64,000 nt of DNA, taken from assembly GCF_001403635.1 (NCBI RefSeq), contig NZ_LN879467.1:616769-680768 (forward strand). The letters are read 5' to 3'. The position numbers and the translations under genes were made by a program. Below are positions 2,459-20,504 of this stretch, piece by piece. Origin of the DNA: Clostridium massiliamazoniense. Lineage in GTDB: Bacteria; Bacillota; Clostridia; Clostridiales; Clostridiaceae. Under the pieces are notes generated by a model. That model saw nothing but the letters and a program-made list of their open reading frames with translations, searched no databases and was not told where the DNA came from. How positions within the stretch are numbered: the first letter of the stretch is position 1; each line of letters opens with the position of its first letter.

Positions 2459-2612
2459 ATTAATATGGTAAAAAATATTTTAAAATAGAAGAGGGCCATA
2501 TGGAGAATTAAAATTTTTATTTGTGATATAGTCAGAGCTATTAAGTTTATTAATAAAAATAAGTACTATGATTAGTTTATTTAAAAACGATATAGATTAG
2601 GAAGTGACAAAT

Positions 2613-2777: not shown

Positions 2778-2797
2778 TTTTCATTGTATTATTAAAA

Positions 2798-2856
2798 GCT
2801 CCTTTTTAAGTAACTAAAAGATTGTCTAGATACTTAAAAGGAGTCTCTGATTTTTT
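2798..2856 (+). terminator. Intrinsic terminator after the 54-aa gene
   Basis: The arms ctcctttttaagta and tacttaaaaggag pair with one bulged base; the run gatttttt follows on the + strand. Confidence 0.75.
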
Positions 2857-2901
2857 AGAATATTAATAGTTTTAAGTCTGTAAAATACTTTGTGTATCCA
2901 A

Positions 2902-3400
2902 TTAAAGTATTTCAATTATTTCTTTTTCTTTTAGAGTTTCTTTTACATCTATAACTCTTTGATTAGAAGAGCCTCTGTATTTTAAACTTATGTTTCTATT
3001 TTTTATTTCAAATTTTCCATCTATTAAAAACATCAACTTCTTTTAATAATTCTAATCTTTTTGGATTATCTATAATTTGTTCAAAAGTATAACCAGACCA
3101 CATCCATATAGGTTTCTTTGTTTCTTTTTTTATTCTTCTTAATAGATTTAATAAAGTATTATCTTTAATTTGCTGCATTGGTTCTCCACCAAGAATATTA
3201 ACTCCTTTAACCATAGGATTCATAGTTAATTTAATAAATTCATCTTCAGTTTCTTTAGTAAAAGGTGTACCATAATTAAAGTTTTGTTGATCTTTATTAA
3301 AGCAGCCATTGCAATTATGAGTACAACCACTTACAAAAAGTGTTGTTCTAATATTTGGACCATTAGTAACATCTAATTTTCTAATTTGTGCATAATTCAT
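2902..3400 (-). pseudogene. nrdG: Anaerobic ribonucleotide reductase activating protein NrdG, interrupted by a frameshift
   Basis: NrdG is the radical SAM enzyme that installs the glycyl radical on NrdD. The start is the ATG ending at 3400 behind AGGAGG (MNYAQIRKLD), not the in-frame ATG ending at 3430. The radical SAM motif is SGCTHNCNGC (CxxxCxxC), followed by NILGGEPM. The continuous frame stops at 3008. Skipping one base of the five-A run at 3026-3030 restores a frame reading LIDGKFEIKNRNISLKYRG and then SSNQRVIDV, the normal NrdG C-terminus, ending at 2902. So one base too many in a homopolymer truncates the protein by about 40 residues. This may be a sequencing error, since nrdD is intact and the pair is needed for anaerobic growth. 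Confidence 0.85.
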
Positions 3401-3431
3401 TGCAAATCCTCCTAAGTAATTAGCTTTCAAT

Positions 3432-3506
3432 TATCTAAGAAACTGTATCTATTTGTCTTAAATTTATAGAAGATTGAAATATTATAGACACTAGTTATTA
3501 GATAAA
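3432..3506 (+). repeat. Family A dispersed repeat, 3' part
   Basis: The segment with ttatagaag at 3465-3473 and ctagttattagataaa at 3491-3506 matches the 3' half of the element at 16724-16855. It sits in the nrdD-nrdG spacer. Confidence 0.55.
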
Positions 3507-3510
3507 TAAT

Positions 3511-3545
3511 AAGTTCTAGCAAGAATAGCTTTCTTACCAGAACTT
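3511..3545 (-). terminator. Hairpin downstream of nrdD
   Basis: The arms aagttctagcaagaa and ttcttaccagaactt pair at 13 of 15 positions. The U-tract is weak, so it may only attenuate transcription from nrdD into nrdG. Confidence 0.5.
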
Positions 3546-3562
3546 AAGAGTTAGATTTTTTA

Positions 3563-5686
3563 TTATAAATGAAGAACTCTATCTCCAATTTCGGCTGTTC
3601 TACCTTTGTTCCAGAAATTGGTTCCAATATATCCACAAGTTCTTCTCATAACTTGCATTTCATCTTCATCATGATTGCCACAAGATGGACAATACCAACT
3701 TAAAGTTTCTTTATCTAATTGGATTTCACCAGTATATCCACATTTATAGCATATATCTGGCTTAGTATTAATTTCAGCATATTGGATGTTGTGGTATATA
3801 AAGTTTATTATACTTTCAACAGCTTCTACGTTTTTGCTCATATCAGGTACTTCTATATATGATATACAACCACCTAAAGAAATATCATGGAATTGAGATT
3901 CAAATTTTAATTTAGTGAAAGCATCAATTTCTTCACATACATGAACATGATAAGAATTAGTATAATATAATCTATCAGTTACATTTTTTATTTTTCCGAA
4001 TTTTGCAGTATCTATTCTACAGAATCTATATATTAAGCTTTCAGCAGGAGTTCCATATAAACTAAATCCTAGTCCAGTTTCTTCTTTCCATTGGCTGCAT
4101 TTAGCATTCATGTGATTCATAACTTCTAAAGCAAATTTTTCTCCTTCAGGAGTTGTGTGGCTTACTCCAAGCATTGCATAAGTTAATTCGCAAATACCAA
4201 CATAACCTAAAGATAAAGTAGAATAACCATCTTTTAATAATTTATCTATCTTTTCACCTTTTTCAAGTCTAGCTATTGCACCATATTGCCAATGGATTGG
4301 GCTTGCATCAGAGGTTATTCCAAGAAGCATTTTATGTCTAGTAAGTAGAGCATCCTTACATAAGTCTAATCTTTCATTGAAGATTTTCCAGAATAAATCC
4401 ATATTTCCTTGAGCTAAAATTCCGATCTGTGGTAAGTTCAGTGAAACAACACCTTGGTTAAATCTTCCGTACCATTTATAATCTCCATTGTTATCTTTAT
4501 ATGGAGAAAGATGTGAACGACAACCCATTGGAGGGAATGTATTTCCTTCATAATTTTTTTTCATCATCTTTGCAGATTGATAATCAGGAACCAATCTTTT
4601 AACTGTACACTTAGCAGCAAGTTTTGTTATATAGTCATATTTACCACCTTCAAGGCAATTATGTTCATCTAGTAGATAGATTAGTTTAGGGAATGCTTCA
4701 CCAATTTCTTGACCTTTATAGTTTTTCATTCCTTCTAATCTTTGCTTTATCATTTCTTCACATATTAAGGCCATTTCTTCTTCATATGGATGTCCTTCTT
4801 CTATTTCTAGGTAAATTGTTGAAAATGGAGCTTGTCCATTTGTTGTTTGTAAAGTTGAAAGTTGATATCTTATAGTTTGTATACCATCTTTAAGTTCTTT
4901 CATTTTTGTATCTAAAGCTAATTTTTTAGCTAGTTTTTCATCATTTAACATTTCAAAATAATGTTTATAAGCTTTTTCTTCTGTAACCTTAAGGTATTTA
5001 GCCAAATGTTTAATAGTGATACTTTGACCACCATATTGATTTGATGAAACTTGTGCTATGATTTGAGTTGCTACAGTACAAGCAGTACTAAATGATTTTG
5101 GTTCTTCAACTAATTTCTCATTAATAACAGTACAGTTAGCGAACATATCTTCTAAATTAACTAAACAACAGTTAAACATAGGTGATAAACTGTAGTCCAT
5201 ATCATGCCAATGGATAGCACCTTCGTCGTGTGCTTGGACTATGTAAGCAGGAATTAATTTTCTTCTTGAAATATCTTTAGATACTTCCCCTGCAATTAAA
5301 TCTCTTTGAGTCGCTGCAACTACGGGATTTTTATTAGAATTTTCATTCATAACATCTTCATTTTGTTTATTTAATAAATCTAAAATACTTTCATCTGTAG
5401 TATTAGTATTTCTTTTAAACTCTTGAACAGCTCTATATCCCTCATAAGCTTTAGCAGTTTCTACTTGTCCGTAATGAACTAATCTATCATATACATATTG
5501 TTCTATTTTATAAATAGTAGCTATTTCTTCATGTTTACTGAAAAAATTTTCACTATCGGTAGCTATTAAACTTGCTATATCTGGTAAATAAATACCACTA
5601 CCATTTTTCATAGCCTTTGAAATTGCCTCTTCTATTTTGCTTTTGTTAAAATCTACTGTGCTTCCATCCCTCTTTATGACTTCCAC
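3563..5686 (-). CDS. nrdD: Anaerobic ribonucleoside-triphosphate reductase (class III)
   Basis: Reduces NTPs to dNTPs without oxygen using a glycyl radical made by NrdG. An N-terminal ATP-cone (about residues 2-90, VIKRDGSTVDF onward) is the allosteric dATP/ATP site. The body carries the active-site regions, the C-terminus has two CxxC pairs (CYKCG and CPSCG) for the structural zinc, and the radical loop is RRTCGYIGTNFWNKGR. At 707 aa it is full length. I chose the GTG ending at 5686 because AGGAG lies 8 bases before it; the GTG ending at 5695 overlaps that site. It precedes nrdG in the usual nrdDG order. Confidence 0.97.
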   Translation of the reverse strand: MEVIKRDGSTVDFNKSKIEEAISKAMKNGSGIYLPDIASLIATDSENFFSKHEEIATIYKIEQYVYDRLVHYGQVETAKAYEGYRAVQEFKRNTNTTDESILDLLNKQNEDVMNENSNKNPVVAATQRDLIAGEVSKDISRRKLIPAYIVQAHDEGAIHWHDMDYSLSPMFNCCLVNLEDMFANCTVINEKLVEEPKSFSTACTVATQIIAQVSSNQYGGQSITIKHLAKYLKVTEEKAYKHYFEMLNDEKLAKKLALDTKMKELKDGIQTIRYQLSTLQTTNGQAPFSTIYLEIEEGHPYEEEMALICEEMIKQRLEGMKNYKGQEIGEAFPKLIYLLDEHNCLEGGKYDYITKLAAKCTVKRLVPDYQSAKMMKKNYEGNTFPPMGCRSHLSPYKDNNGDYKWYGRFNQGVVSLNLPQIGILAQGNMDLFWKIFNERLDLCKDALLTRHKMLLGITSDASPIHWQYGAIARLEKGEKIDKLLKDGYSTLSLGYVGICELTYAMLGVSHTTPEGEKFALEVMNHMNAKCSQWKEETGLGFSLYGTPAESLIYRFCRIDTAKFGKIKNVTDRLYYTNSYHVHVCEEIDAFTKLKFESQFHDISLGGCISYIEVPDMSKNVEAVESIINFIYHNIQYAEINTKPDICYKCGYTGEIQLDKETLSWYCPSCGNHDEDEMQVMRRTCGYIGTNFWNKGRTAEIGDRVLHL

Positions 5687-5764
5687 TAAAACCACTCCTA
5701 AACATATGATTACCTCACATACAACTAGTTGAGGTATTATTTATAATTATTATCGTCTTAAAAT

Positions 5765-5812
5765 ACACATCATATTGTACTATTATTTTGATAGATATAC
5801 AAGATATTGAAC
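5765..5812. promoter_or_regulatory. Two candidate NrdR boxes upstream of nrdD
   Basis: acacatcatattgtac (5765-5780) and atacaagatattgaac (5797-5812) match the NrdR consensus acaCwAtATaTwGtgt at 12 and 11 of 16 positions. They are 32 bases apart start to start, the three-turn spacing typical of paired NrdR boxes. NrdR represses ribonucleotide reductase genes when dATP is high. Individually weak; the spacing is the main support. Confidence 0.45.
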
Positions 5813-6484
5813 TGCAGATATTGTTAAATTTTAAGTAATATTCTTTTAAGTTCTTTCTTTTTCGTCATATAAATCTATAAAGGGATAAAAAATAGGGAAT
5901 ACATTATTATATATTTTTTAAGATAGAGATAAATTAAGGATTAATTAAGATAGAGTTAAAGGTTCATTTAAATTATTTGTTTTTTTTGAAAATAAAAAAT
6001 ATATCAACTGTTTATGAGAGAAAATATTTTCAAAAAATGACTTGATAAACAGTTAAAAAATAGTTAAATATATAAATTTTACGTTAATTACACAATGATT
6101 TTTTGTAAAGTAAAATTTATACTCTTATTTTAAACAGAAAAAATGTAAAAAAATAACTTTAAAATTATAAACATAATACTAGTAGTATTATGTTATTTAT
6201 ATAAAATTATTACTAAATTACTTTAAAAATTGTCTAATTAATAATAAGAATAATAGTTTCTAAAATTAGGTTTTATTTTTTTAAATATAAATAAAAAATA
6301 TATAAATAAAAATTACATTTAAAGTTTGGGGATTTATAAAATTAATTGATAAAATATAGTCAAGTTAAGAGGCTATATTTTGAGCCATATTTTATAATAA
6401 TCAATTTATAATGTAAGTTTATTTATAGTATAAAACTACATTTTAGTTATTAAATTAATTTACTTTTATTTGGAGGAATGTCAA
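5813..6484. other. Long AT-rich intergenic region before the carbonic anhydrase gene
   Basis: No credible coding sequence. It contains a 10-bp inverted repeat, aactgtttat (6006-6015) and ataaacagtt (6045-6054), enclosing the perfect palindrome gaaaatattttc (6020-6031). A segment near 5930-5975 (aagatagagttaaa) weakly resembles the family A repeat. Confidence 0.45.
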
Positions 6485-7249
6485 GTGAAAAAGGCGATAA
6501 TTGGAATAGTGATAGCTGCTGTTATAGCATGTGGAGGATATGGAATTTATAGAGGTGTAAGCAATAAAAAATCAACTGCAAAAGTTGCTTCACAACAATT
6601 AGATACAAAAGCAACTGCTAAGGCAGGGGCAACAGCTACAACGGCTACAACAACTACAAGTCATGGTGAGGCGAGTACTACAGTAACACCTGATCAAGCT
6701 TTAAATTTACTTAAAGAAGGAAATAAGAGATTTGTAGAAGATAAATCACAACCTAATAATGTTGATGCAAAGAGAAGAAAAGAACTTGAAAGTGGACAAC
6801 ATCCATATGCTACAATAGTTTCATGTTCAGATTCTAGAGTAACACCAGCCCTTGTATTTAATGCTGGACTTGGTGATATATTTGATGTAAGACTTGCAGG
6901 TGATGTTGTTGATGATTCAGCTTTAGGTTCAATAGAATATGCAGTAGATCATTTACATACACCTTTAATAGTTGTAATGGGACATGAAAAATGTGGTGCA
7001 GTAACAGCAGCTTATGATGATGTTGTTAAGGGACAAAAAGCACATGGCCATGTAGAAGACTTAGTTGATGAAATAAAACCAGCAATTAATAAGAACGGAA
7101 CTGTAGATGATGCAATCAGAAAGAATGCAGAAAATGTAGCTAATGAAATAGAAAAAGATCCAGTAGTTGCACAAGCAATTAAAGCAGGAAAATTAAAAGT
7201 AGTTACAGCTTACTACGATTTAGATGGAACAGTTCAATTTAATTCTTAA
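6485..7249 (+). CDS. Exported beta-class carbonic anhydrase
   Basis: Interconverts CO2 and bicarbonate with a zinc ion. The catalytic set is complete: Cys114 and Asp116/Arg118 in CSDSRVTP, then His167 and Cys170 in MGHEKCGA. The start is the GTG at 6485, 8 bases after GGAGG; the TTG at 6470 overlaps the ribosome site. The N-terminus MKKAIIGIVIAAVIAC is a signal sequence, and VIAC fits a lipobox with Cys16, so a membrane-anchored extracellular form is likely. Residues about 27-65 are an Ala/Thr-rich linker. Most bacterial beta-CAs are cytoplasmic, so export is notable. Single gene with its own terminator. Confidence 0.93.
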   Translation: MKKAIIGIVIAAVIACGGYGIYRGVSNKKSTAKVASQQLDTKATAKAGATATTATTTTSHGEASTTVTPDQALNLLKEGNKRFVEDKSQPNNVDAKRRKELESGQHPYATIVSCSDSRVTPALVFNAGLGDIFDVRLAGDVVDDSALGSIEYAVDHLHTPLIVVMGHEKCGAVTAAYDDVVKGQKAHGHVEDLVDEIKPAINKNGTVDDAIRKNAENVANEIEKDPVVAQAIKAGKLKVVTAYYDLDGTVQFNS

Positions 7250-7280
7250 AATAAAAAAATAAGATATTTAGTTTTTTAAT

Positions 7281-7330
7281 AAACCCTATATAAAATTACT
7301 TTTTAAACTTTATATAGGGTTCTTTTAATT
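7281..7330. terminator. Bidirectional intrinsic terminator
   Basis: aaccctatataaa pairs with tttatatagggtt, followed by cttttaattt. It lies between the convergent carbonic anhydrase and PNPOx-like genes. Confidence 0.82.
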
Positions 7331-7339
7331 TGTTAGATT

Positions 7340-7813
7340 TTATTTATTTCCTTTGTAAGATTTTCCTGTAATATGATCAATTGAAATTTTAATCACATTA
7401 GTTAAATGACTTGCTTTTCTTATATATTCTGCACCTTCACTTAAATATTCAGGAGAGTATTTACAAATGAATTTGTCTAAAGCTTTTTTCTTTTCAGCTT
7501 CAGTAGCTACACAAGCAGTTCCAAAGATTATAACACTATCATATTCTGTAGTAAATTTACTTGGCAAAACTTTAGTATTACTTACAATAGTAAATGATAC
7601 TTTGTTATTTTCATTTATATTTTCAATTTTATGTCCGGAAGTACTTCCGTGAAAATAAATTGAATCATCAATAAATACATAGCTAATAGGAACAGTATAT
7701 GGATAGCCATTTTTACTGATTGTTCCTAAAACCCCATATTCAGATTCTAAAAGTATTTTTTCAATTTCATTTTCTTTTAACGCTAAATTTATTTTTCTCA
7801 TTGAATGAAACAT
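7340..7813 (-). CDS. Pyridoxamine 5'-phosphate oxidase-like flavin-binding protein (NimA/YqiA-type)
   Basis: A 157-aa split-barrel flavin-binding protein. The N-terminal stretch YGVLGTISKNGYPYTVPISY is the family hallmark, followed by IYFHGSTSGHK. These proteins bind FMN, F420 or heme; some (NimA) reduce nitroimidazoles, most are uncharacterised. A GGGG tract lies 8 bases before the ATG ending at 7813. Monocistronic, convergent with the carbonic anhydrase gene. Substrate and cofactor are inference. Confidence 0.85.
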   Translation of the reverse strand: MFHSMRKINLALKENEIEKILLESEYGVLGTISKNGYPYTVPISYVFIDDSIYFHGSTSGHKIENINENNKVSFTIVSNTKVLPSKFTTEYDSVIIFGTACVATEAEKKKALDKFICKYSPEYLSEGAEYIRKASHLTNVIKISIDHITGKSYKGNK

Positions 7814-8254
7814 ATATAAACCCCATTTCTATTTAAATATATGGATATAATTAATTCTAGCATAAGTAATTATCTTGGATAAAGTTTAAGTATTTTAGGA
7901 TTTAATTTTAATATTTTTAATTAAGAATTAGTTTTATAATTCTTTTTATATTTTAATTACAACTAAATAAATTTTGTATATAAATAAGTAGAAAATCACT
8001 TTTTATGAAATTTAATTTATTTAAAACTTCATTAAAAGCTTCTTATCATAAGGTTTATATATGTGTGTGCAAAATAGAAAAGAAAAAATGATATTGTATC
8101 AAGTTTTATATAAATAAATCAAAAAATTATAATTGATTATTCAATCAATATTTAAAACAATACTTTTTTATTAAAATAATAAGCTGATATTTAGATTTTT
8201 AATTTTTATTTTAAAAGTAGTAAAAAATTTTAATTATTTTTAATATAAATATAT
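7814..8254. other. AT-rich intergenic region, no feature recognised
   Basis: Divergent spacer between the PNPOx-like gene and selO. I see no coding sequence or clear RNA element in this part. Confidence 0.5.
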
Positions 8255-8283
8255 ATGACTAATCTGATAAAGTTGAGTATAAT
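8255..8283 (+). promoter_or_regulatory. Sigma-A promoter of selO with a long leader
   Basis: ATGACT (8255-8260), a 17-base spacer and a perfect TATAAT (8278-8283). Transcription would begin near 8290, giving a leader of about 230 bases. The leader contains the pairing arms agaggt (8300-8305) and acctct (8337-8342), so it may be structured; it matches no riboswitch I know. Confidence 0.55.
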
Positions 8284-8523
8284 AGTCATATATAAATAAA
8301 GAGGTTGATTATTACATAATTAAGAGATAATAGAAGACCTCTAAATATTATATAAAAATTAAAATAAGCTTTTCGTAGAGTAAGAATAATATATTTTAAT
8401 ATAGCGAAAATTAAAAATGCTAGTTTATTTAAGAAGAGTATATCTAAATTAGGTTTTAATTTATTTTTAGATTGTATTTAACTTAAATATAATAATCAAT
8501 GAAAGGAGGATGGAAGAAGACCT

Positions 8524-9993
8524 ATGATAGAAAAAGAAGTAAGAGAAAGTGTATTTAATTTTGAAAATACTTATGCAAAGCTTCCTAATTTATTTTTTTC
8601 AGAACAAAAACCAACTATAGTTCCAGCACCTAAATTGGTTAAGCTCAATTATTCTTTAATAAATGATTTAGGATTAGATTCAAAGGCTTTAGAAAGTGAA
8701 TATGGAACTAATTTATTAGTAGGTAATGTTATTGAAGAGAATTCAAAACCTATTGCTAAGGCTTATGCAGGTCATCAATTTGGACATTTTACTATGTTAG
8801 GTGATGGAAGAGCAATTCTTTTAGGTGAGCATATAACACCAAAAGGAGAAAAATTTGATATTGAGCTTAAAGGTTCAGGGAGAACACCTTATTCAAGAGG
8901 TGGAGATGGAAAGGCTGCTTTAGGACCTATGCTTAGGGAATATATTATAAGTGAAGCTATGTATAATTTAAAAATACCAACTACTCGTAGTTTAGCTGTG
9001 GCTACTACAGGAGAACCTGTATTCAGAGAAGATACTCTCCAAGGAGCTATTTTAACTCGTGTGGCAAAGAGTCATATTCGTGTTGGAACTTTCCAGTATG
9101 CTGCAACATGGGGAACTAAGGAAGATCTTAAGGCATTAGCAGATTATACTTTACATAGACACTATGATGAATTTGAAAAAGAAGAAAACCCTTATGTTTT
9201 CTTACTTAAGGAAGTAATAAAAGCACAAGCAGAACTTATTTGCAAATGGCAATTAGTAGGGTTTATTCATGGTGTAATGAATACTGATAATATGACAATT
9301 AGTGGTGAGACTATTGATTATGGTCCATGTGCATTTATGGATACATATAACTCTGCAACAGTATTTAGCTCTATAGACCATTTTGGAAGATATGCTTATG
9401 GTAATCAACCTAATATTGGGGCATGGAATCTTGCTAGATTTGCAGAAACTTTAATACCATTATTAGATGATGACAAAGAGGAAGCTATAAAGATAGCACA
9501 AAATGAAATATCAAATTTCAGTGCAATTTTCAAAGAAAAGTGGCTTTCAGGAATGAGAGCTAAATTGGGATTCTTTAATGAAGCTGATGAAGATTTATAT
9601 ATAATCGAAGGGCTTTTATCAATGATGGAAAAATACAAGGTGGATTATACTAATACTTTTGTTGCTTTAACATCAGGTGAAATAGAAACTATGGAACTTT
9701 TTAATAAAGAAGAATTTAAAGTGTGGTATGATTTATGGGTAAAGAGATTAGAAAGACAAGAGCAATCAAAGGAAGAAATAAAGAAATTAATGGAGGAAAG
9801 TAATCCTATAGTGATTCCTCGTAATCATAGGGTTGAAGAAGCTTTAGAAGCAGCTGATGTTGGAGACTTTACTGTTATGGAAAAGCTTTTAGATGCTTTG
9901 TCAAGACCTTACGATTATTCAAGGGATGTTGATTATTATAAAGAACCTCCAAAACCAACAGAAACTCCATATAGAACTTACTGTGGAACATAA
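8524..9993 (+). CDS. selO: Protein adenylyltransferase SelO (YdiU/UPF0061)
   Basis: SelO is a pseudokinase that transfers AMP from ATP to protein hydroxyls in redox stress signalling. Clear family blocks are [20 protein letters not shown], then [20 protein letters not shown], and the metal-binding loop [20 protein letters not shown]. At 489 aa it is full length. The third-last residue is Cys487 (YRTYCGT), the position of selenocysteine in vertebrate SelO. The ATG at 8524 lies 14 bases after GGAGG, a rather long spacing. It is transcribed alone from the promoter at 8255. Confidence 0.96.
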
Positions 9994-10057
9994 AACTTAT
10001 AAAACTTAAAATAACTTAAACTTAATTTTAAACATAAACATAAATACAAATATATAG

Positions 10058-10097
10058 AAGCTTACTTTAGGAAATAAACTAAGGTAAGCTTTTTTTA
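10058..10097 (+). terminator. Intrinsic terminator after selO
   Basis: aagcttactttag pairs with ctaaggtaagctt (one G-U), followed by tttttt. Confidence 0.85.
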
Positions 10098-10248
10098 TTT
10101 AAGAGGATATGAGCAAAATATTTTCTATGTGATAATTATATTTAGAATTTAGTGATTAACGAAGTTAGATTATCCTTAAAATATTGTAATAAGAGGGCGT
10201 AAGAAACTATATATATTTTATGTAAGTATTTTTTTAGGAGATAAAATT

Positions 10249-10758
10249 TTGAATTGGTTATATGTTAAAAGTGTAGAGGAATTAAAAGAGTTTGGAAAGA
10301 TGAAGGATGTCAAAAAGCTTGTAAAAAAGGATTTAGCTGAGTTTTTTAAGAAGCAAAAATCAGCTGATAAAAATATAGTTGAAATGATTAAGATAACTAG
10401 TACTTCTTGGACTGGATTATACAATAAAATATGTGCCTTAAGAGAATTTATGAATACAATTAAGGTAGATAATTCTTTAAGAGAAAAAGATATTGTAAAT
10501 GAAAGCAAAACTAATGAAATAAAGTATTTTAAAAGTGAAGAGGATGAAATTATATTTTATCTTTTAGAAATGGAAGGTAAAAAAAGAAGTGAGAAGCTTG
10601 GAATTACAAGAGCTTGTTTTATTAATGAAAAAGAAGCGAAAAAGTGGAGGAATAGAATATCTAAAAAAATACATCCAGATAAAACTAATAATAAAGATGC
10701 TACAGAGGCTACAGCTAAGCTTAATCAATTATATAAAGAGATGATTGGTGATGCCTAA
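10249..10758 (+). CDS. Small protein with a C-terminal J-domain-like segment
   Basis: A 169-aa protein that starts at TTG 10249, 8 bases after AGGAG. The last 50 residues resemble helices II-III of a J-domain: ACFINEKEAKKWRNRISKKI, then HPDK at residues 142-145, then a helix ending LNQLYKEMIG. HPD is the motif that stimulates Hsp70 ATPase. The N-terminal 90 residues are Lys-rich and helical and match nothing I know. The stop codon overlaps the start of the HNH gene by 8 bases, so the two are co-translated. An Hsp70 adaptor role is inference; the domain may be degenerate. Confidence 0.7.
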   Translation: MNWLYVKSVEELKEFGKMKDVKKLVKKDLAEFFKKQKSADKNIVEMIKITSTSWTGLYNKICALREFMNTIKVDNSLREKDIVNESKTNEIKYFKSEEDEIIFYLLEMEGKKRSEKLGITRACFINEKEAKKWRNRISKKIHPDKTNNKDATEATAKLNQLYKEMIGDA

Positions 10759-11506
10759 GAAGAAAGTAGTAAAAAGTAAAGAAGTAGTGAAAGAGGGAGA
10801 AAAACTTCCTGCTATATTTCAATATGATATGAGTACCATATCCTTTAATAAGCCAGAAGCTTTTGATGGCGCTGATAAAAGAACAATTAAGAGTATAACT
10901 AATGCTTGTGAGAAATCCTTTGGTGATAAAAATACAGTTATTTATTTTGATTCTTCTTATGTTCATAGAATTTTAAGGACCAAAGATTATATAGCAAGAG
11001 AAGAGATTTTTAATTTAGATGATGATGAAAAAATTAATTGGGAAAATAAGATCTATGTTAGCTTAGGAGCTGTAATGAAATTAGTTAATAAGAAGTTAAG
11101 TTCTATAGGGACAGGAAAGACAAGAGATTATTTAACTTTTGTAGAACAATATCTAATAAGTATGAGAGATAATGATAAATTTATAAATATGAGGACAAAG
11201 TTAGAAAAAGATTGGCAAGATGAAGTAAATAAACTAAAAAATCAAAGAAAGAGGAAATACAAAATAAAATGTGATGAATTAACTGGAGAACCTTTAAAGA
11301 AAAATTGTCAATTTTCACATATAAGATCAAAGGCTATGTATAAGAATGTTTCTCTTGATATAAATAATGGCTTAATAGTTAATGCAGATACACATAATAT
11401 AATAACAGCTAAAAAAGTTACAAATGAAGATGAATTATTAAGCTTATGTAAGGACAAGGGCTGGGAAACTAGTTGGTATAATGAATATATTGTAATTATG
11501 AGATAA
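10751..11506 (+). CDS. HNH-type (His-Me finger) endonuclease-like protein
   Basis: A 251-aa product. The ATG at 10751 overlaps the upstream J-domain gene; a TTG and GTG just before it are less likely starts. The C-terminal third has an HNH arrangement: Cys174 in KCDELTGEP, His190 in FSHIRSK, Asn206 in INNGLIV and His215 in ADTHNII, a spacing of 15 and 8 residues that fits the fold. Only one Cys of the usual structural zinc pairs is present. The N-terminal 170 residues are basic (MPKKKVVKSK) and unassigned. Tight coupling to the J-domain gene suggests a common function, possibly defence; this is inference. Confidence 0.68.
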   Translation: MPKKKVVKSKEVVKEGEKLPAIFQYDMSTISFNKPEAFDGADKRTIKSITNACEKSFGDKNTVIYFDSSYVHRILRTKDYIAREEIFNLDDDEKINWENKIYVSLGAVMKLVNKKLSSIGTGKTRDYLTFVEQYLISMRDNDKFINMRTKLEKDWQDEVNKLKNQRKRKYKIKCDELTGEPLKKNCQFSHIRSKAMYKNVSLDINNGLIVNADTHNIITAKKVTNEDELLSLCKDKGWETSWYNEYIVIMR

Positions 11507-11553
11507 ACTAAGACTTAATTTAGATAGAGTTTTAATTCTAATTTTTAACTAAG
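11503..11553 (+). repeat. Family A dispersed repeat, 5' part
   Basis: Begins ataaactaagacttaatt and continues with agatagagtttt; over 38 bases it differs at about five positions from the copy at 16724. It starts at the stop codon of the HNH gene. Confidence 0.65.
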
Positions 11554-11554
11554 T

Positions 11555-11597
11555 ACCACTAAAGTATATTAATATAACTTTTGGTGGTTTTTTTATT
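11555..11597 (+). terminator. Intrinsic terminator after the J-domain/HNH pair
   Basis: accactaaag and acttttggtggt pair around an AT-rich centre, then ttttttta. It separates the pair from the deaminase-like gene. Confidence 0.75.
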
Positions 11598-11702
11598 GTA
11601 TTAAATTTTTAATTAATGACTTATTTTAATATTATATGTGAATTTGTAGGAAGTAGTATATAATATTGGATGTAATTTAATTTCAAAAGATAAGGGGATA
11701 GT

Positions 11703-12833
11703 ATGGAAGATTTACATAGGGATTATTATAAAAAAAAGAAAAGAAGGATTAAGATTAATGGAATTAAGGATTTTAAAGAGGCTTTGATTAATGAAGGTTA
11801 TAATATAAGTGGTATTAAAGCTGAAAATTTTAAAGAGGGGATTTCTAAGCTTTTCAGTATAGATAGTTTAGTAGTGGACAAGCTTTATAAGATTATGACT
11901 AAGGATAATATTACTTATAGAGCTAAGAGTATTGAGGATTTTATTGATTATATAGAAACTATTATGCTATATGAGGAAATGCATGAAAGATTATGTAATA
12001 AAATAAAAGAGATAGATAAGTTATATATAGAAAGAGTAGAGTACGAAAGAGTAGCAAGCTCTCAAGATAGCATAGATCATATGCTAGAAGCTATTGAAGA
12101 AGTAAAATCAAGTATGGTAAAAATAAGTGAACATGGAGTATTTAGAATTAATGCTTTAGAAGAAGAAATAGCTAAAAATTATTTATATGCCAAGGATATT
12201 GAGTTATTGAAGAAAATTATTCTTTCTAATAATAGAATATTAGAGGAAGACTATGATGAAGAAAATAGAATTAAAACAATAAGTTTTAATATTCCTGAAG
12301 TTATAAATCATGATTATATTCCTGTTAAAATTGGGACTTTAGAATATCATGAACATTTAAATAAGGATATTCCTAGAATGAAAAGATTAATAAAAAATAT
12401 AGATAAGTATATGGAAGACCATGAAGAGGGAAGGAACACATTTAAAATAAATCAAAGTTTAGCTCTTCAAGATTCTATAAATATAGCTTTAGCAATTTTT
12501 AATAATAGAGAATTTAAGGCTATTAGTGGAAGTAATGATATAGAAGATTATTGTAAGGCTCCAGCTTTAGAGGAAGCAAGATTTAAAAGTAATAAAGTTA
12601 ATAAATTAGGGAAATTAGGGGTTGGATATAATAGAGTTAATGATAGTGAAAAAAAGATTTTAGAAGAAATACATAGACTAATAGAAAAAAAGGAACTTAG
12701 TGATGAAGGGAAGCTTATTTTGTATAGTAAATGGGAACCTTGTCCAAGCTGTTGTTTTGTAATTAGTCAATTTTGTGAGAAGTACCCTAAAATAAAAATA
12801 GAAGTTGAGTATCATAAGAGCTATGGTGAATAA
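11703..12833 (+). CDS. Protein with a C-terminal deaminase-superfamily-like domain
   Basis: A 376-aa cytoplasmic protein. The first 240 residues are charged, helical and partly coiled coil and match no family I know. The last 70 residues resemble bacterial deaminases of toxin type: NDSEKKILEEIHRLI (Asp314-Ser315-Glu316), then LILYSKWEPCPSCCFVISQF with Cys347 and Cys350 in a PCxxC, then a KYPKIKIEV strand. The usual first zinc ligand (His or Cys in HxE/CxE) is not obvious; the equivalent here is DSE. No signal peptide or toxin-delivery domain is visible. It lies 196 bases after the J-domain/HNH pair and has its own terminator. Confidence 0.6.
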   Translation: MEDLHRDYYKKKKRRIKINGIKDFKEALINEGYNISGIKAENFKEGISKLFSIDSLVVDKLYKIMTKDNITYRAKSIEDFIDYIETIMLYEEMHERLCNKIKEIDKLYIERVEYERVASSQDSIDHMLEAIEEVKSSMVKISEHGVFRINALEEEIAKNYLYAKDIELLKKIILSNNRILEEDYDEENRIKTISFNIPEVINHDYIPVKIGTLEYHEHLNKDIPRMKRLIKNIDKYMEDHEEGRNTFKINQSLALQDSINIALAIFNNREFKAISGSNDIEDYCKAPALEEARFKSNKVNKLGKLGVGYNRVNDSEKKILEEIHRLIEKKELSDEGKLILYSKWEPCPSCCFVISQFCEKYPKIKIEVEYHKSYGE

Positions 12834-12857
12834 ATATTATTCACTATAGCTTTTTTA
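12819..12857 (+). terminator. Intrinsic terminator overlapping the end of the deaminase-like gene
   Basis: agctatggtgaata pairs with tattcactatagct, followed by tttttta; the stop codon lies in the loop side of the stem. Confidence 0.82.
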
Positions 12858-12897
12858 TATTTACATATATGTAATAAAAAGGTATATTATAAGTAAG

Positions 12898-12916
12898 AAT
12901 ATCGATAGTCGATATT
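12898..12916. promoter_or_regulatory. Operator palindrome upstream of the PadR gene
   Basis: aatatcga-tag-tcgatatt is a perfect 8-bp inverted repeat with a 3-base centre, 21 bases before the padR-type start. This position suits autoregulation by the PadR repressor. Confidence 0.7.
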
Positions 12917-12936
12917 TTAATATTTAGGGGGATATT

Positions 12937-13242
12937 ATGGCAAGAGAACAATTGCAAAATTTAACAGAGCCTATGTATTATATACTAATAGCATTACTAG
13001 AAGAACGGTGTGGTGTTGATATAATGTGGGCTGTTAATGAAATTTCAAGGGGGAGAGTTAAGGTTGGGCCAGGAACTTTATATGCTTTATTAAAAAGATT
13101 TGAAAAGGAAAAAATCATAGAAGAAACCACAGTGATATCAAGAAAAAGAAGCTATATAATTACAGAAAAGGGTAAGAAAATTTTAATGGAAGAGTATGAA
13201 AGATTAAAGATTTTAGTTGAGGATGGAAATAGAATATTTTAA
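12937..13242 (+). CDS. PadR-family transcriptional regulator
   Basis: A 101-aa winged-helix repressor. The family signature is clear: LTEPMYYILIALLEERCGVD (helix 1-2), then GRVKVGPGTLYALLKRFEKE (recognition helix), then the wing SRKRSYIITEKGKKIL. A GGGGG site precedes the ATG. The gene ends 13 bases before the DUF2812 gene, forming a two-gene operon that is a known pairing in Firmicutes. The palindrome at 12898 is its likely binding site. The inducing signal is unknown. Confidence 0.92.
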   Translation: MAREQLQNLTEPMYYILIALLEERCGVDIMWAVNEISRGRVKVGPGTLYALLKRFEKEKIIEETTVISRKRSYIITEKGKKILMEEYERLKILVEDGNRIF

Positions 13243-13255
13243 GGGGGGGAAATTT

Positions 13256-14347
13256 ATGAGAATAGGTAATACTAAGTTAGTTTTATATGATTTTATAGCT
13301 TTTGAATATAAAGGATTAGAATTGTATTTAAATAGAATGGCTTTAAAGGGATGGAAGTTGAAATCTATTAAAACAGGAGGCATTTTAAAGTTTAAAAAGA
13401 TAGAGCCTAAGAATATAAAGTATGTGGTAGATATAGTTGATGAAATTTCACTTTTAGATGGTAAGAATAGTGATTATGCTTTAGAATATAGAGAATATTG
13501 TGCTGAAGCAGGATGGGAGTTTGTATGTGAAAGAAATAAACTTCAAATTTATTGTGCTGAAGAATATAAAGAAAATATAGAAATACAAACTGATGAAGAA
13601 ATGAAATTTGAAAGTATCTATAAGGCTTCTTTAAAATATATTTTAATCACGCTAATTGCACCTATAATACTTTTTATTAATCAATATATAACTATTAAAA
13701 TAGATGAAGATGCATTATTTTTAGCTAGTAATATGGATATGATTTTAATGGCACTTATGGTAGTGATGTTTATAGAGGGAGGAGCAAATCTTACTAAATT
13801 TATAATTTGGTATAGAAAAGGTAGTAATGCATTGAAGAATGGGAAGAGAGTATCCTACGGGAATCCTTTGCTTTTAAGAACTAAGGTTATAGAATCAGAG
13901 ATTTTGCGACCTATGGGGTTAATAATTTTTGCTGGACTTATCTTTTTTGGTAATTTAAATAATAAGATTACTTTATATGTTATGGTGGGAAATATTATAA
14001 TTTTTTTATTATCAATAATTATATTTAATAAAGTTATGGATAATAAAATTACTAAGAAGAAGAAAATAATTATAGGTACAGCATCTATTACTATGCCAAT
14101 AACTATATTTTTAATTACCGTTGTCTATATTATATTCAATGGAAATATTGATTCAAATAAATTTAATAATGTTAATACACCTCTTATTTTAAGTGATTTT
14201 ACTAATAAAAGTTCTAAAGCTTATTATCTTGATATATTAATAGGAAAAAACAAAGTAATACAAATAAGAAATATTAATGAAAAATTTGCTGAAGAGGAAT
14301 TTTTAAATATGGTTTATGAAAAGGGATTAAAAGAGTTAAGTATATAA
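13256..14347 (+). CDS. DUF2812 membrane protein
   Basis: A 363-aa product starting at the ATG at 13256, behind a GGGGGGG tract; an earlier in-frame start at 13217 would overlap the padR gene. The first 110 residues are a soluble DUF2812 domain (LYLNRMALKGWKLKSI and a later YREYCAEAGWEFVCE). Four or five hydrophobic helices follow from about residue 125 to 300, with a C-terminal soluble tail. DUF2812 proteins are regularly the membrane partner of PadR regulators; their function is not established. Confidence 0.87.
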   Translation: MRIGNTKLVLYDFIAFEYKGLELYLNRMALKGWKLKSIKTGGILKFKKIEPKNIKYVVDIVDEISLLDGKNSDYALEYREYCAEAGWEFVCERNKLQIYCAEEYKENIEIQTDEEMKFESIYKASLKYILITLIAPIILFINQYITIKIDEDALFLASNMDMILMALMVVMFIEGGANLTKFIIWYRKGSNALKNGKRVSYGNPLLLRTKVIESEILRPMGLIIFAGLIFFGNLNNKITLYVMVGNIIIFLLSIIIFNKVMDNKITKKKKIIIGTASITMPITIFLITVVYIIFNGNIDSNKFNNVNTPLILSDFTNKSSKAYYLDILIGKNKVIQIRNINEKFAEEEFLNMVYEKGLKELSI

Positions 14348-14439
14348 TTTTTTGGAAATTATTATTTTTTGATATAGGATTATATATAGTATAATGAAGT
14401 GTAAAAATCAAAACTATTTATAGAAATTAGGAGAATTTT

Positions 14440-15000
14440 ATGGCTGATTATATAAAGACTTATTCAAAAATTAAATTTGCACCATTAGAACCAAAGGAAG
14501 AAGATATTTTAATTGATGATATAGCACATGCATTATCTCTTGTGTCTAGAGCAAATGGACATTTTGAAGAATTTTATTCAGTGGCACAACATTGTATATT
14601 CTGTTGTGAAGAAGCTTTAGCTAGAGGATATGGAAATAAGGTAGCATTAGCTTGTCTTTTACATGATGGAAGTGAAGCTTATCTTGCAGACATAACAAGA
14701 CCAGTAAAGAAAAATCTAGAAAAATACTTAGAAGTAGAAGAAGTTTTACAAGAAACTATTTATAAAAAGTTTATAGGAGAAGAATTAACAGCAGAGGAAA
14801 GAGCACAAATAAGTTCTGTAGATAATAGTTTATTATATTATGAATTCATACATTATATGGATGAAAAGCTTGAAATGGAGGCAGAACCATTAGTAAGTAA
14901 GCCAGATTTTAGATTTATGGAATTTAAAGAAGTTGAAAATCAATATAAGGAACTTCTTAAGAATTTAAGTAAAGTTATGGCTTTTGCTACTAATAATTAG
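14440..15000 (+). CDS. HD-domain phosphohydrolase (YfbR-like)
   Basis: A 186-aa HD-superfamily protein. Metal ligands are visible in order: His in SVAQHCIFCCE, the His-Asp pair in ACLLHDGSEAYLADI and a later Asp in SSVDNSLLYYE. The ADITRPVK stretch after the HD pair is shared with YfbR-type 5'-deoxynucleotidases. It may dephosphorylate dNMPs, but substrate is inference. GGAGAATTTT precedes the ATG. Single gene. Confidence 0.85.
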   Translation: MADYIKTYSKIKFAPLEPKEEDILIDDIAHALSLVSRANGHFEEFYSVAQHCIFCCEEALARGYGNKVALACLLHDGSEAYLADITRPVKKNLEKYLEVEEVLQETIYKKFIGEELTAEERAQISSVDNSLLYYEFIHYMDEKLEMEAEPLVSKPDFRFMEFKEVENQYKELLKNLSKVMAFATNN

Positions 15001-15052
15001 GATGTTAAATGGACAAGCTATTTAATGAGAAAAAAGAAGTTATCTTAATTAT

Positions 15053-15106
15053 ATAGCTAGATAAAAGCAGAGAGGATGTATTTGTAATTTGATACATCCT
15101 CTTTTA
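15053..15106. repeat. Family B repeat, copy 1 (terminator-like)
   Basis: agctagataaaagcagaga followed by a hairpin with arms gaggatgtat and atacatcctc and a cttttaa tail. The same unit recurs near 29437 and 42736. It sits between two convergent genes and would stop transcription of the HD gene. Confidence 0.8.
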
Positions 15107-15110
15107 AGGT

Positions 15111-15656
15111 TTAATATTTTTTCACCAATTCAGTTAAAGGTATAATAGAAGATTTATTTGTAAAAGAAACTACTTTTCCATAGGTTTCTAAAAATTCTTT
15201 GTTTTCATCTGTTAATGTTTTCGGGTCTTTTTTCTTAAGAGATGATTTTAGCACTGCCATCATTATTTTGTGTATAGGTGTTAATTTTTTATAGTTTACA
15301 TTTCCTCTAAAATGAAAAAATTTAATTTTTTCTATCATATCTTTATTAAAGATTTTTTCTATACTATTATTAAAGGCTCTAAGGTTTTCTTTAGCTGTTG
15401 GATCAGCAAGTCCACAGGTAAATACTATTATGTTTTTATTTTTTATTAGTTCAAAGTTTTTTACTATTAACTTTATTCCTTTTATACTACCAGCATAAAG
15501 CCCTCCACCATAGATTATGGTGTTATATTCTTTTAATTTACTTAAGTTGACTTTATCTCTTTCAAAAAGGTCAGCAGAAAGTTCTTCAGCTATCCATTGA
15601 GCATATTGTTTTGTAGAGCCATATTTAGAAGTATATATAACTACTATTTTATTCAA
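15111..15656 (-). CDS. Flavodoxin-domain protein
   Basis: A 181-aa FMN-binding flavodoxin-fold protein. The phosphate loop is YTSKYGSTKQYAQWIA, followed by the flavin-binding loops IYGGGLYAGSIKG and FTCGLADPT. It resembles HemG-type or flavodoxin-like quinone reductase proteins of clostridia. The start is a TTG ending at 15656, 9 bases after GGAGG. The family B repeat lies at its 3' end. The physiological electron partner is unknown. Confidence 0.87.
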   Translation of the reverse strand: MNKIVVIYTSKYGSTKQYAQWIAEELSADLFERDKVNLSKLKEYNTIIYGGGLYAGSIKGIKLIVKNFELIKNKNIIVFTCGLADPTAKENLRAFNNSIEKIFNKDMIEKIKFFHFRGNVNYKKLTPIHKIMMAVLKSSLKKKDPKTLTDENKEFLETYGKVVSFTNKSSIIPLTELVKKY

Positions 15657-15778
15657 TTTTTTAATCCTCCATAGAATTACTTAAGTAATATTTAAATTAT
15701 AAATATATAATACCATATTTTGGATAAATAAGTGATAATAAAATAGTTATTTATATAAAAAGAATTTTAAAACCTTTT

Positions 15779-15840
15779 TGTAAAGTTTACTTTACATATT
15801 TTGAGAATTAATTTATAATATATGTAAAGTTAGCTTTACA
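15779..15840 (+). promoter_or_regulatory. Promoter with two operator palindromes for the XRE/DUF2178 module
   Basis: TTTACA (15791-15796), a 17-base spacer and TATAAT (15814-15819) form a strong sigma-A promoter. Palindrome 1, tgtaaagtttactttaca (15779-15796), covers the -35. Palindrome 2, tgtaaagttagctttaca (15823-15840), covers the predicted start of transcription. Their centres are 44 bases apart, four helical turns. This is a classic autorepression layout. Confidence 0.82.
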
Positions 15841-15891
15841 TTATTGAAAATTAATAGTACAAAGATAATTGTATTTAAAGGTGGTGTTTAG

Positions 15892-16089
15892 TTGAAAAAT
15901 AAATTAGAAGAGATACGGAAAGAAAATGGGTATACTCAAGAGGAATTAGCAGAAAAATTAGGGGTATCAAGACAAACTATAAATTCTCTAGAAAAAGGGA
16001 AGTATAATCCATCAATTATATTAGCTTTTAAGATAGCTAAGTTTTTTAATTTATTCATAGAAGAGATTTTTATATATGAAGAGAATTAA
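15892..16089 (+). CDS. XRE-family HTH regulator, 65 aa
   Basis: A minimal Cro/C1-type helix-turn-helix: RKENGYTQEELAEKLGVSRQ followed by TINSLEKGKYNPSIILAFKI and a short hydrophobic tail. It starts at TTG 15892 behind GGTGG. It is followed after 73 bases by a small membrane protein, a common pairing in Firmicutes. The palindromes at 15779-15840 are its likely operators. Confidence 0.93.
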   Translation: MKNKLEEIRKENGYTQEELAEKLGVSRQTINSLEKGKYNPSIILAFKIAKFFNLFIEEIFIYEEN

Positions 16090-16162
16090 TTTGTCTTTAG
16101 TGAAAAGGGATTATAATTAAGGGATAATAGTTAGATATATTAAATTAAGGGGAGAATTTAAT

Positions 16163-16585
16163 TTGAAAAAAAGAGAAAGAGTAATCAGTTTGACGAGTAT
16201 TATAATTGGTGTTATTTTTTTAGCTATTGTATTCATTGTATTTGGGGAAAGCAGATTTAATAATGTATCAGGTGTTTTATTAGGGAGTGGAACTTGTTTT
16301 TTAACCTATGGAGTAGGATATTTTATAAAGAGTAGAAGATTTAAAAAATACCCTAGTGTTAAAAGAAAATTAGATATAGATAAAAATGATGAGAGAAATA
16401 TTATGATAAAGGAGAAATCTCAATCTAAATCAAATAATATAACTTTTTATTTGATGATTTTTTTATTGATTATATCAATATTCTTTAAACTTCCTAGTAT
16501 AGTTAAGGTAATATTAGGGATTTTAATAGTTTTCAATATTATTTTAGATATAGTTTTATATAGACATTATCAAAAGTATTTATAG
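16163..16585 (+). CDS. Small four-helix membrane protein (DUF2178-like)
   Basis: A 140-aa protein with hydrophobic helices near residues 8-27, 35-53, 93-109 and 112-132. Between the pairs lies KNDERNIMIKEKSQSKSNN, which resembles the DERxxxIxxKA motif of DUF2178 proteins. The start is TTG 16163, 8 bases after GGGGAG. It forms an operon with the XRE regulator upstream. The role of this family is unknown. Confidence 0.75.
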   Translation: MKKRERVISLTSIIIGVIFLAIVFIVFGESRFNNVSGVLLGSGTCFLTYGVGYFIKSRRFKKYPSVKRKLDIDKNDERNIMIKEKSQSKSNNITFYLMIFLLIISIFFKLPSIVKVILGILIVFNIILDIVLYRHYQKYL

Positions 16586-16591
16586 AATTTT

Positions 16592-16636
16592 TAAACCTTC
16601 AATGATTCTAAAAAGATGGAAACATTGGAGGTTTAA
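16592..16636 (+). terminator. Hairpin terminator after the XRE module
   Basis: taaaccttcaatg pairs with cattggaggttta. The following tract (atatatta) is weak in U. Confidence 0.6.
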
Positions 16637-16723
16637 TATATTACAAAAAAATTAATAATATGTAACTAAAATGAAGAAAAATTTATTATTACCATATAGT
16701 ATGATAAATTTGACAACTAAATA

Positions 16724-16855
16724 TAAACTAAGACTTAATTCAGATGGAGTTTTCACTCTAGTTAAATTTTAGTAGTTCTTATCTAGGAATTTATGTCTGT
16801 TTATTTCTAACCTATAGAAGTTTGGATTACTATAGACATTAGTTATTAGATAAAG
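16724..16855 (+). repeat. Family A dispersed repeat, near-complete copy
   Basis: About 130 bases from ataaactaagacttaatt to agttattagataaa. A reverse-oriented copy lies at 33258-33384, a 5' part at 11503 and a 3' part at 3432. It occupies most of the 303-base spacer before the SH3 protein gene. Confidence 0.7.
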
Positions 16856-16888
16856 TAACAGGACTATATAATAGGGAGGATAATACAA

Positions 16889-18712
16889 ATGAAAAAGATT
16901 GCTATATTAGGATTAATAACAACAGCAGCTGTTGGAACTTCTGTTTCATCTGCAATTATTCATAACAATAATAATGATAATAATCATCAGATTAAGAATA
17001 ATAAAACACTATTATCAGGAGTAAAGTTAGGTATAAAAACTAATCGAGCTGTAGTTATTAATGGTAATGATAGATTGAACTTATATGGAACAAGCAATGG
17101 AAAAGGAATTGTTTCTAACTTATCTGCGGGAGAAATGCTTACAGTTTTAGGTGGAAATAAAAATTTTACAAAGGTTGAGGTTCAAGAAACAGGAATTGTA
17201 GGTTATATATCTAATAGTAATATTAAGAATATATATAATGCTGAAAATATTGAAATGTCTACTTTAGAGGGAAGTGGAACCATAGTTAATGTAAGTACAG
17301 CAGTTAATTTAAGAGCGGGGGCTGGAATAAATTCTTCAGTTATTAAAGAAATTAAAGGTGGAAGTTCAGTATCTATATTAGGAAAACAAGGACAATGGTA
17401 TAAAATCAATGCAAATGGAAGTGTTGGATATATATATGGTGACTATGTAAGCCTTAATGTGGGAGGGAACATATCAAAAAATAATGATACATCATTAATT
17501 AATAGTAGCGTTAAAAATACTTCCATTTCAAAAAATCTAAATACATCCAATATTGCAAAGGGAGAAATAGGTTCTTTAAATGGAGAAAAACCTGCTAATA
17601 GAAATATAAAAGTATTAGGAAAAACTAGTACAAATACAGAGAAAAATCAATTAGAGGAAGTAGGAAGTAAAGAAAAATTAAATACTGTTACTTCTAATAA
17701 GAATATAAGCAAGGAAAAGAATATAACTAGTGGTAATTTAGAAGGAAATAATGTAAAGAAAAATTCAGAAAGTAAAGAGGGGACTGAAAAGAATAAAACA
17801 GCTTATATAACTAATGTCAAAGTTAATAGTGCGCCGATTTTCTATGTATCAATGGATGGAGAAAAAACTTCTTGGCAGTTAGAAAATGGACAAAAAGTTA
17901 TGGTATTAGGGGAAGATCATAATAACTACAAAATAAAAGTTATTGATTCTGGAATTACAGGTTATGTAAATAAGAATAATATTACTTTTAAGAACAATGA
18001 AAATGATATACATCCAAATGATAATAAATTACTTTCAAGTTATTTTGGAACGTGGACAGTTGGAAAACAAATAGGTTACATGATTGGAGAAGGTGGATAT
18101 TTTAAATCTTACGAGGGGAACAAATTAGTAATGACAAAGGATATGTTTTCATTTATGGGGACAACTATAAAGGATCCAAATTACTATATAGTAAATATGG
18201 GTGTTGGAGAATACTTTGGAAATTCGAAATATGATAAATTTGGTGATTTAAAAACTAATAAATATGGTGAATTAGAAGTACTAGCAGTATTACCTAGCTC
18301 AGAAAAAGTAACTAATAAGGAATTCTTAAATAAAATTCAGTGTAATCCTTCTGGAATTTTAATATCAGGAGACAGTCTTGTTACTTTTGGAGGAGGAACT
18401 AATAATGCATCACTTAATGAATGTTTAAGAGGAGATGTTAAAGTTAAGGTTCCAAAGGTAGATTTAAGTAAGTATATTGGAAAGTTAGCCTTTGTTAATG
18501 AAAATAATTGTTATATATATAAAGATTCTAATGTAAATTCAGAAAATAGTTCAGTTAAGTATGGTTCCTATGGAACAATTGAAAAGATAGATGGAAATTG
18601 GGTATATTTAAAGGCTTCAGGAAAAGGTGAAAGTTTAACAGGCTGGATGGAATTAAGCGATTTAAGATTAATAAATAGAACTGATGCTCAACTTCAAAAT
18701 AGTGATAAATAA
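16889..18712 (+). CDS. Secreted multi-SH3b-domain protein
   Basis: A 607-aa exported protein with the signal peptide MKKIAILGLITTAAVGTSVS. Bacterial SH3-type repeats are visible near residues 47-110 (LNLYGTSNGKGIVSNL), 128-188 (VNLRAGAGINSSVIKEI, the best match), 308-370 and, more divergent, 533-597 (ending GWMELSDLRLIN). Residues 190-305 are an Asn/Ser/Lys-rich linker. A region of about 380-520 is unassigned. SH3b domains usually bind peptidoglycan, so a cell-wall-associated role is likely, but no hydrolase domain is visible. AGGGAGG precedes the ATG. Confidence 0.82.
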   Translation: MKKIAILGLITTAAVGTSVSSAIIHNNNNDNNHQIKNNKTLLSGVKLGIKTNRAVVINGNDRLNLYGTSNGKGIVSNLSAGEMLTVLGGNKNFTKVEVQETGIVGYISNSNIKNIYNAENIEMSTLEGSGTIVNVSTAVNLRAGAGINSSVIKEIKGGSSVSILGKQGQWYKINANGSVGYIYGDYVSLNVGGNISKNNDTSLINSSVKNTSISKNLNTSNIAKGEIGSLNGEKPANRNIKVLGKTSTNTEKNQLEEVGSKEKLNTVTSNKNISKEKNITSGNLEGNNVKKNSESKEGTEKNKTAYITNVKVNSAPIFYVSMDGEKTSWQLENGQKVMVLGEDHNNYKIKVIDSGITGYVNKNNITFKNNENDIHPNDNKLLSSYFGTWTVGKQIGYMIGEGGYFKSYEGNKLVMTKDMFSFMGTTIKDPNYYIVNMGVGEYFGNSKYDKFGDLKTNKYGELEVLAVLPSSEKVTNKEFLNKIQCNPSGILISGDSLVTFGGGTNNASLNECLRGDVKVKVPKVDLSKYIGKLAFVNENNCYIYKDSNVNSENSSVKYGSYGTIEKIDGNWVYLKASGKGESLTGWMELSDLRLINRTDAQLQNSDK

Positions 18713-18728
18713 TATAATTGAAAATTAA

Positions 18729-18775
18729 AAAACATAGGTAGTATGAATTTTAAGAAATACTTACCTATGTTTTAG
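18729..18775. terminator. Bidirectional intrinsic terminator
   Basis: aaaacataggta pairs with tacctatgtttt (inner stem with bulges), with A- and T-rich flanks, between two convergent genes. Confidence 0.8.
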
Positions 18776-18778
18776 ACT

Positions 18779-20475: not shown

Positions 20476-20504
20476 AATTTTAAATACCTTTCTTGAATTT
20501 ATAA

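Follow-up and report, generated by a model that had tools for sequence, protein, structure and literature searches.

A J-like protein gene overlapping a gene for a predicted two-domain HNH nuclease: a conserved pair with a possible role in defence

Within a 64,000-nucleotide stretch of the Clostridium massiliamazoniense genome (contig NZ_LN879467.1, positions 616,769 to 680,768; hereafter the window), a gene for a J-like protein overlaps the gene for a predicted HNH nuclease. The pair is a real, conserved module of known parts newly combined, which is undescribed in the literature searched: no library model and, in the openly available publications covered, no paper describing a J-HNH pair was found. 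Directly supported are the two genes and their overlap, the conservation of the pair, its domains at the level of fold, two invariant nuclease histidines (H190 and H215) and its mobile contexts. That the two proteins act jointly, as a sequence-only reading of the window had proposed, is well supported, because a J partner adjoins 14 of 15 distinct nucleases and all five distinct strong matches of the J profile are paired. Our best explanation, to which we give about an even chance, is that of a mobile two-gene module whose nuclease is controlled by the J-like protein, with DNA cleavage serving defence. The pair and its predicted parts are as follows.

10249..10758, forward strand: J-like protein gene, 169 amino acids (aa); open reading frame (ORF) with TTG start; match to phrog_17986 at E 1.4e-17; nuclease-adjacent relatives at 13 other loci
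10249..10515, forward strand: residues 1-89 of the J-like protein, a helical N-terminal region (from the model and alignments); variable, absent from short members
10516..10755, forward strand: predicted J-like domain, residues 90-169
10672..10683, forward strand: HPDK motif, read from the sequence
10751..11506, forward strand: two-domain HNH nuclease gene, 251 aa; ORF; relatives at 14 other loci
10820..11191, forward strand: predicted BRO-N/KilA-N/APSES-like domain, nuclease residues 24-147
11210..11503, forward strand: predicted HNH domain, nuclease residues 154-251, with H190 at 11318-11320 and H215 at 11393-11395

Conservation of the pair

The comparison covers 15 distinct nuclease loci, namely the window, Acetoanaerobium (L001), two Klebsiella plasmids (L002 and L003), a Vibrio/Photobacterium plasmid group of nine records counted once (L004), an Alcanivorax metagenome-assembled genome (L017), Vibrio owensii (L018), a phage contig (L025, also L027), a Cupriavidus plasmid (L047), and L023 (genome G277), L033 (G440), L034 (G486), L055 and L056 (both G1115) and L057 (G507). 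At 14 of them the gene immediately upstream, in the same orientation, encodes a J relative. With start codons taken as annotated or first in frame, the two genes overlap by 4-11 nucleotides (nt) in 12 of the 14 pairs, and gaps of 2 nt and 6 nt separate them at L023 and L057, respectively. In the window, the ORF list and the sequence give a shared 8 nt; this overlap, HPDK and the nuclease residues H190, N206 and H215 are all present as the sequence-only reading had described them. The window nuclease has 251 aa when started at ATG and 253 aa when started at TTG 10745. The neighbourhood survey which that reading had suggested shows a pair conserved across distant bacteria, plasmids and a temperate phage; chance adjacency of the two genes was rejected on the same arrangement, kept at 14 of 15 loci and in distant bacteria.

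Profile searches from the J side agree with this picture. A J profile run against 398 Pseudomonadota genomes returned 11 matches, two of them with E below 1e-30 and both paired, and against 197 Vibrionaceae genomes it returned four matches at E 1e-8 or better, again all paired; because both sets are centred on genome G002 and include it, these amount to five distinct strong matches. The nine weak matches in the 398 genomes (E 9e-8 to 9e-4) look like ordinary proteins of the CbpA/DnaJ type and were not counted: their ORFs are 313-377 aa long, with HPD in all nine and a G/F-like run in seven. Identity matrices of the J-like proteins and of their nucleases are also correlated, with r 0.77 for 11 intact pairs, a value that 3 of 20000 permutations attained; the correlation is r 0.36 over nine pairs (61 of 20000) once the near relatives L017 and L018 are removed. 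Corresponding values in a smaller, earlier set were r 0.79 over nine pairs (30 of 20000) and r 0.38 over seven (232 of 5040).

The sole J-less nuclease copy, on the Cupriavidus plasmid, adjoins a RES gene and has a shortened N-terminal domain, its match to the nuclease profile beginning only at position 55. The nuclease frame is broken at L033, where the J gene is retained. Genome G1115 holds two diverged pairs, each J gene lying beside its own nuclease gene. At L034 and L057 the nuclease region after the J gene is split into two genes, giving a three-gene form (L034:6414-8023 and L057:8442-9937) of J-like protein, N-domain-only protein and HNH protein. The HNH protein of L057 also matches the nuclease profile from position 49, which hints at a duplicated N-domain subunit.

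The J-like protein and the nuclease

A J-like fold in the upstream protein is assigned with moderate confidence. The window protein matches the Pfam DnaJ family (PF00226) at E 6.9e-4 and 20.1 bits, below the cut-off of 27.8 bits, and three of nine members match that family at E 0.1 or better; the fold is backed by a nine-member profile and by the predicted structure. In that structure the N-terminal region has confidence scores (pLDDT) mostly of 60-82, falling below 50 at residues 74-92. One weak match of the window protein in PADLOC-DB 2.0.0 (PDC-M19A, E 1e-3, residues 19-111) lies mostly before the J-domain. The L057 relative (L057:8442-8852) bears, by eye, a hydrophobic N-terminal segment and is perhaps membrane-anchored.

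Like J-domain proteins of the DnaJ/Hsp40 type, the paired proteins have a helical J fold with a basic helix preceding HPD, whereas the window protein stays below the Pfam cut-off, HPD is often lost, and a tryptophan in an A-K-x-W region is conserved (13 of 14). The J-like protein also differs in having no further visible chaperone domain and in being coupled to a nuclease. Among the 14 paired J proteins, HPD is intact in six, reads HSD in four and is lost in four. Stimulation of Hsp70 requires HPD, and with the motif intact in just six of 14, recruitment of Hsp70, which the sequence-only reading had taken to be the task of this domain, cannot be the shared function. The frequent loss of HPD together with the retained tryptophan speaks for an adaptor role rather than for an obligatory recruitment of Hsp70. 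These counts also bear on the idea that the J-like protein is a co-chaperone dedicated to this pair, which brings in DnaK so that the nuclease is folded or loaded, or which recruits DnaK to the DNA target. The J-domain fold and the six intact motifs, the window's included, speak for it, whereas all eight proteins with HSD or without HPD are still paired, and we regard it as quite improbable.

The C-terminal part of the partner is, with moderate confidence, an HNH fold and thus a predicted nuclease. Its beta-beta-alpha element is predicted from strands at 187-190 and 207-210 and a helix at 212-220, and each of the 11 intact single-gene relatives has both H190 and H215, N206 being present in six. 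This element and its two histidines are shared with the HNH (His-Me finger) nucleases Cas9 HNH, VcaM4I and colicin E7, to which domain-level fold comparisons or weak profile matches point. Unlike those nucleases, none of nine members matches a Pfam HNH family at E 0.1, the HNH domain lies C-terminal to a BRO-N-like domain, and a J partner is present. A further difference concerns the residue before the base-like histidine, the usual first metal ligand of HNH: it is replaced by S or A in four of 11. The J and HNH folds anticipated by the sequence-only reading are thus borne out by structure prediction at moderate confidence.

The N-terminal domain of the nuclease, which that reading had overlooked, appears to resemble BRO-N/KilA-N domains and is probably DNA-binding. 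Residues 24-147 are predicted to have the same arrangement as granulovirus Orf22 (4ye7), Mbp1 and DdrC, and the domain also appears similar to antirepressors and, in part, to MerR regulators. It differs from BRO-N/KilA-N/APSES-like domains in its fusion to HNH and in having no family match at the sequence level.

Distribution and genomic contexts

As would be expected for mobile cargo, the module is rare and patchily distributed. Nuclease-profile matches were found in 2/398, 1/61, 3/197, 1/78, 1/369 and 2/244 genomes of six samples, which overlap in part, include their own centres and were all drawn around proteobacterial centres. These counts are lower bounds, since the nuclease profile missed G507, which the J profile caught. 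The DNA of E. coli genomes gave no match to two Klebsiella pairs. Among viral contigs, no relative was confirmed by scans with single window proteins, and nuclease-profile scans gave nothing beyond the phage contig L025 already found, which a DNA pattern scan recovered together with one unrelated contig (L024). A J-profile scan of the same collection gave eight loci that were rejected as generic J-domain matches, seven of them in ORFs of 295-300 aa. In PADLOC-DB 2.0.0, no model matched any of nine nuclease members at E 0.1.

On the phage contig, one strand carries, in order, a repressor gene (helix-turn-helix (HTH) and S24 peptidase domains), the J gene, the nuclease gene and a serine recombinase gene, while the opposite strand encodes an HTH protein, YqaJ and RecT; the pair, lying between repressor and integrase, is part of a temperate phage's lysogeny module. 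In Streptococcus thermophilus phages, PMC3952083 places the superinfection-exclusion gene ltp after the integrase gene inside the lysogeny module. The ltp gene of TP-J34 is, like the present pair, cargo beside an integrase in such a module, whereas its product is described as a surface lipoprotein that blocks DNA injection, and the present genes encode a predicted nuclease pair (PMC3952083).

On plasmids and chromosomes the neighbours vary. A K. pneumoniae plasmid has an FRG gene upstream of the pair and UvrD, multiubiquitin and ThiF genes downstream, and the tns genes of a Tn7-like element begin about 9.5 kb away. A Klebsiella plasmid stretch, L048:19642-25481, encodes a UvrD-like helicase (matching a GajB model) followed by multiubiquitin, ThiF and DUF6527 genes, near Tn7-like tns genes. 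Defence-type neighbours are AbiH beside L034, SIR2 beside L004 (a Vibrio plasmid) and FRG near L003; a DndB/DpdB-like gene lies 2.7 kb from the L017 pair. TraF and TraG genes adjoin the L033 pair, a tyrosine recombinase gene adjoins the L057 pair, and an HTH regulator gene follows the L004 pair. Ordinary-looking genes surround the pairs of L055 and L056, the exceptions being a tRNA, a DUF3987 protein and a C4 RNA that lie a few kb from the L056 pair. These latter features (L056:11220-16335; the large protein probably being the DUF3987 match) suggest a P4-like satellite at a tRNA, and the C4 antisense RNA and the tRNA were the only Rfam matches on nine loci.

Two readings bear directly on these contexts. 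A regulatory pair of phage or host, in which a DNA-binding protein that has lost catalysis acts as antirepressor or regulator with the J-like protein as its ligand, would fit the antirepressor-like and partly MerR-like N-terminal domain, the adjoining repressor in L025, the HTH regulator gene after L004 and the S or A at the usual first metal ligand in four of 11. With H190 and H215 invariant in every intact single-gene copy, we give this reading little credence. The joining of HNH to a phage-type domain and the single pairs at varied sites would also suit a selfish homing-type element, that is, a self-spreading HNH endonuclease with the J-like protein as passenger or cofactor. However, the J gene is conserved alongside the nuclease gene, and free-standing phage homing endonucleases place HNH first and are not known to have a J partner; such an element is very unlikely here.

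In the window itself, further forward-strand features flank the pair.

10056..10093, forward strand: hairpin terminator before the pair, 3' of the SelO gene; stem of 15 pairs and a T run
10236..10240, forward strand: AGGAG, a likely ribosome-binding site read from the sequence, 8 nt 5' of the J-gene TTG
11555..11588, forward strand: probable terminator 3' of the pair; stem followed by seven T

The placement of the pair between terminators, proposed by the sequence-only reading, stands firmly on one side: the upstream hairpin is strong (-18.8 kcal/mol, shuffle z -5.8), while the downstream one, though visible, is weak (z -1.3, with 22 of 200 shuffles folding equally well) and was not in the list returned by a terminator scan of the window. 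The pair has a G+C content of 26.7%, against 26.8% for the window, so composition shows no trace of recent import. Its neighbours encode SelO, a toxin-deaminase-family protein and a PadR regulator, among others; scans of the window with Rfam and ARAGORN returned nothing and no tRNA, respectively. Megablast of window positions 2000-22000 gave no match among plasmids, and the window's low G+C content and its genes suggest a Clostridium-like Bacillota. The gene directly after the pair (11703-12833, forward strand) has a 376-aa product whose C-terminal domain is a toxin deaminase of the BURPS668_1122 type (PF14424, E 1.7e-34). A single operon with this gene was considered and dropped, given the terminator-like hairpin in between; the deaminase was not systematically sought at other loci.

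Proposed function and its significance

In the favoured explanation, the J gene would supply a J-like adaptor and the second gene a nuclease with N-terminal BRO-N/KilA-N-like and C-terminal HNH domains. We infer that overlapping translation would produce both proteins together and that they would act as one physical complex, in which the J-like protein binds the nuclease and either keeps it inactive or guides it. Infection or foreign DNA would then release or target the nuclease, whose cleavage of DNA, the presumed substrate, may halt the invader or the cell and so confer a benefit in defence. The defence role raised by the sequence-only reading is plausible in light of the temperate-phage lysogeny module and of three loci with AbiH, SIR2 or FRG as a neighbour.

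Several observations weigh against this explanation. Defence neighbours are limited to some of the loci, and no enrichment is claimed (111 of 112 neighbours were scanned, with capped family counts and no control set). Around the window pair no mobile element was recognized by eye, the genes being ordinary. Furthermore, solitary J relatives are present in nine Fusobacterium records (five phages and four plasmid-collection records); a nuclease-profile search of four of these nine found no nuclease, and tblastn with the window nuclease gave no Fusobacterium record. Short solitary J-like proteins lie in Fusobacterium phages and a plasmid at L006:514-750, L007:6733-6969 and L008:5938-6237, and the two whose sequences were read (L006, 78 aa; L008, 99 aa) are without HPD. 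The J protein can therefore stand alone, whereas the nuclease is hardly ever found alone; separation of the homologues as often as pairing, named by the sequence-only reading as evidence to the contrary, is not seen for the nuclease (apart at one of 15 loci).

The solitary J genes, as orphan antitoxins, would also fit a toxin-antitoxin or addiction module, whose J-like antitoxin and HNH toxin would help to maintain a mobile element rather than provide defence. A small upstream gene overlapping the toxin gene is typical of type II modules, the gene order here fits that type, and the pair is carried by plasmids and a phage. Moreover, the only J-less nuclease (L047) is shortened and the only broken nuclease (L033) retains its J gene, although each asymmetry is one case. 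No DNA-binding fold was seen for the J-like protein, however, and the pair is rare (2/398 genomes), whereas addiction modules are often abundant; we consider this reading rather unlikely. Defence is favoured over pure addiction because of the phage position and the defence-type neighbours at some loci, with confidence in defence overall about even.

A link between J proteins and defence has a precedent in bNACHT25, which requires host DnaJ for phage sensing and so provides a case of a J protein working upstream of an effector nuclease (PMC12169576). As in the module proposed here, a J-domain protein is tied there to an effector nuclease in anti-phage defence, whereas the J protein of that system is host DnaJ and its sensor is the NACHT protein; here, the J-like protein is co-encoded with the predicted nuclease and defence is only proposed (PMC12169576). 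A more specific version, which we hold doubtful, would make the J-like protein a decoy of host DnaJ: phage proteins that seize DnaK/DnaJ would bind the decoy and release the HNH nuclease, and the solitary J relatives of Fusobacterium phages (HPD-less in those read) would be inhibitors that silence the nuclease.

If the explanation in terms of defence is true, the pair would represent an undescribed nuclease module controlled through a chaperone-adaptor fold. It would extend the connection between DnaJ and phage sensing, seen with bNACHT25, to a self-contained two-gene system that could be transferred to laboratory strains. The partial loss of HPD would then make it possible to test directly whether J folds can be put to a new use in regulating nucleases, independently of Hsp70.
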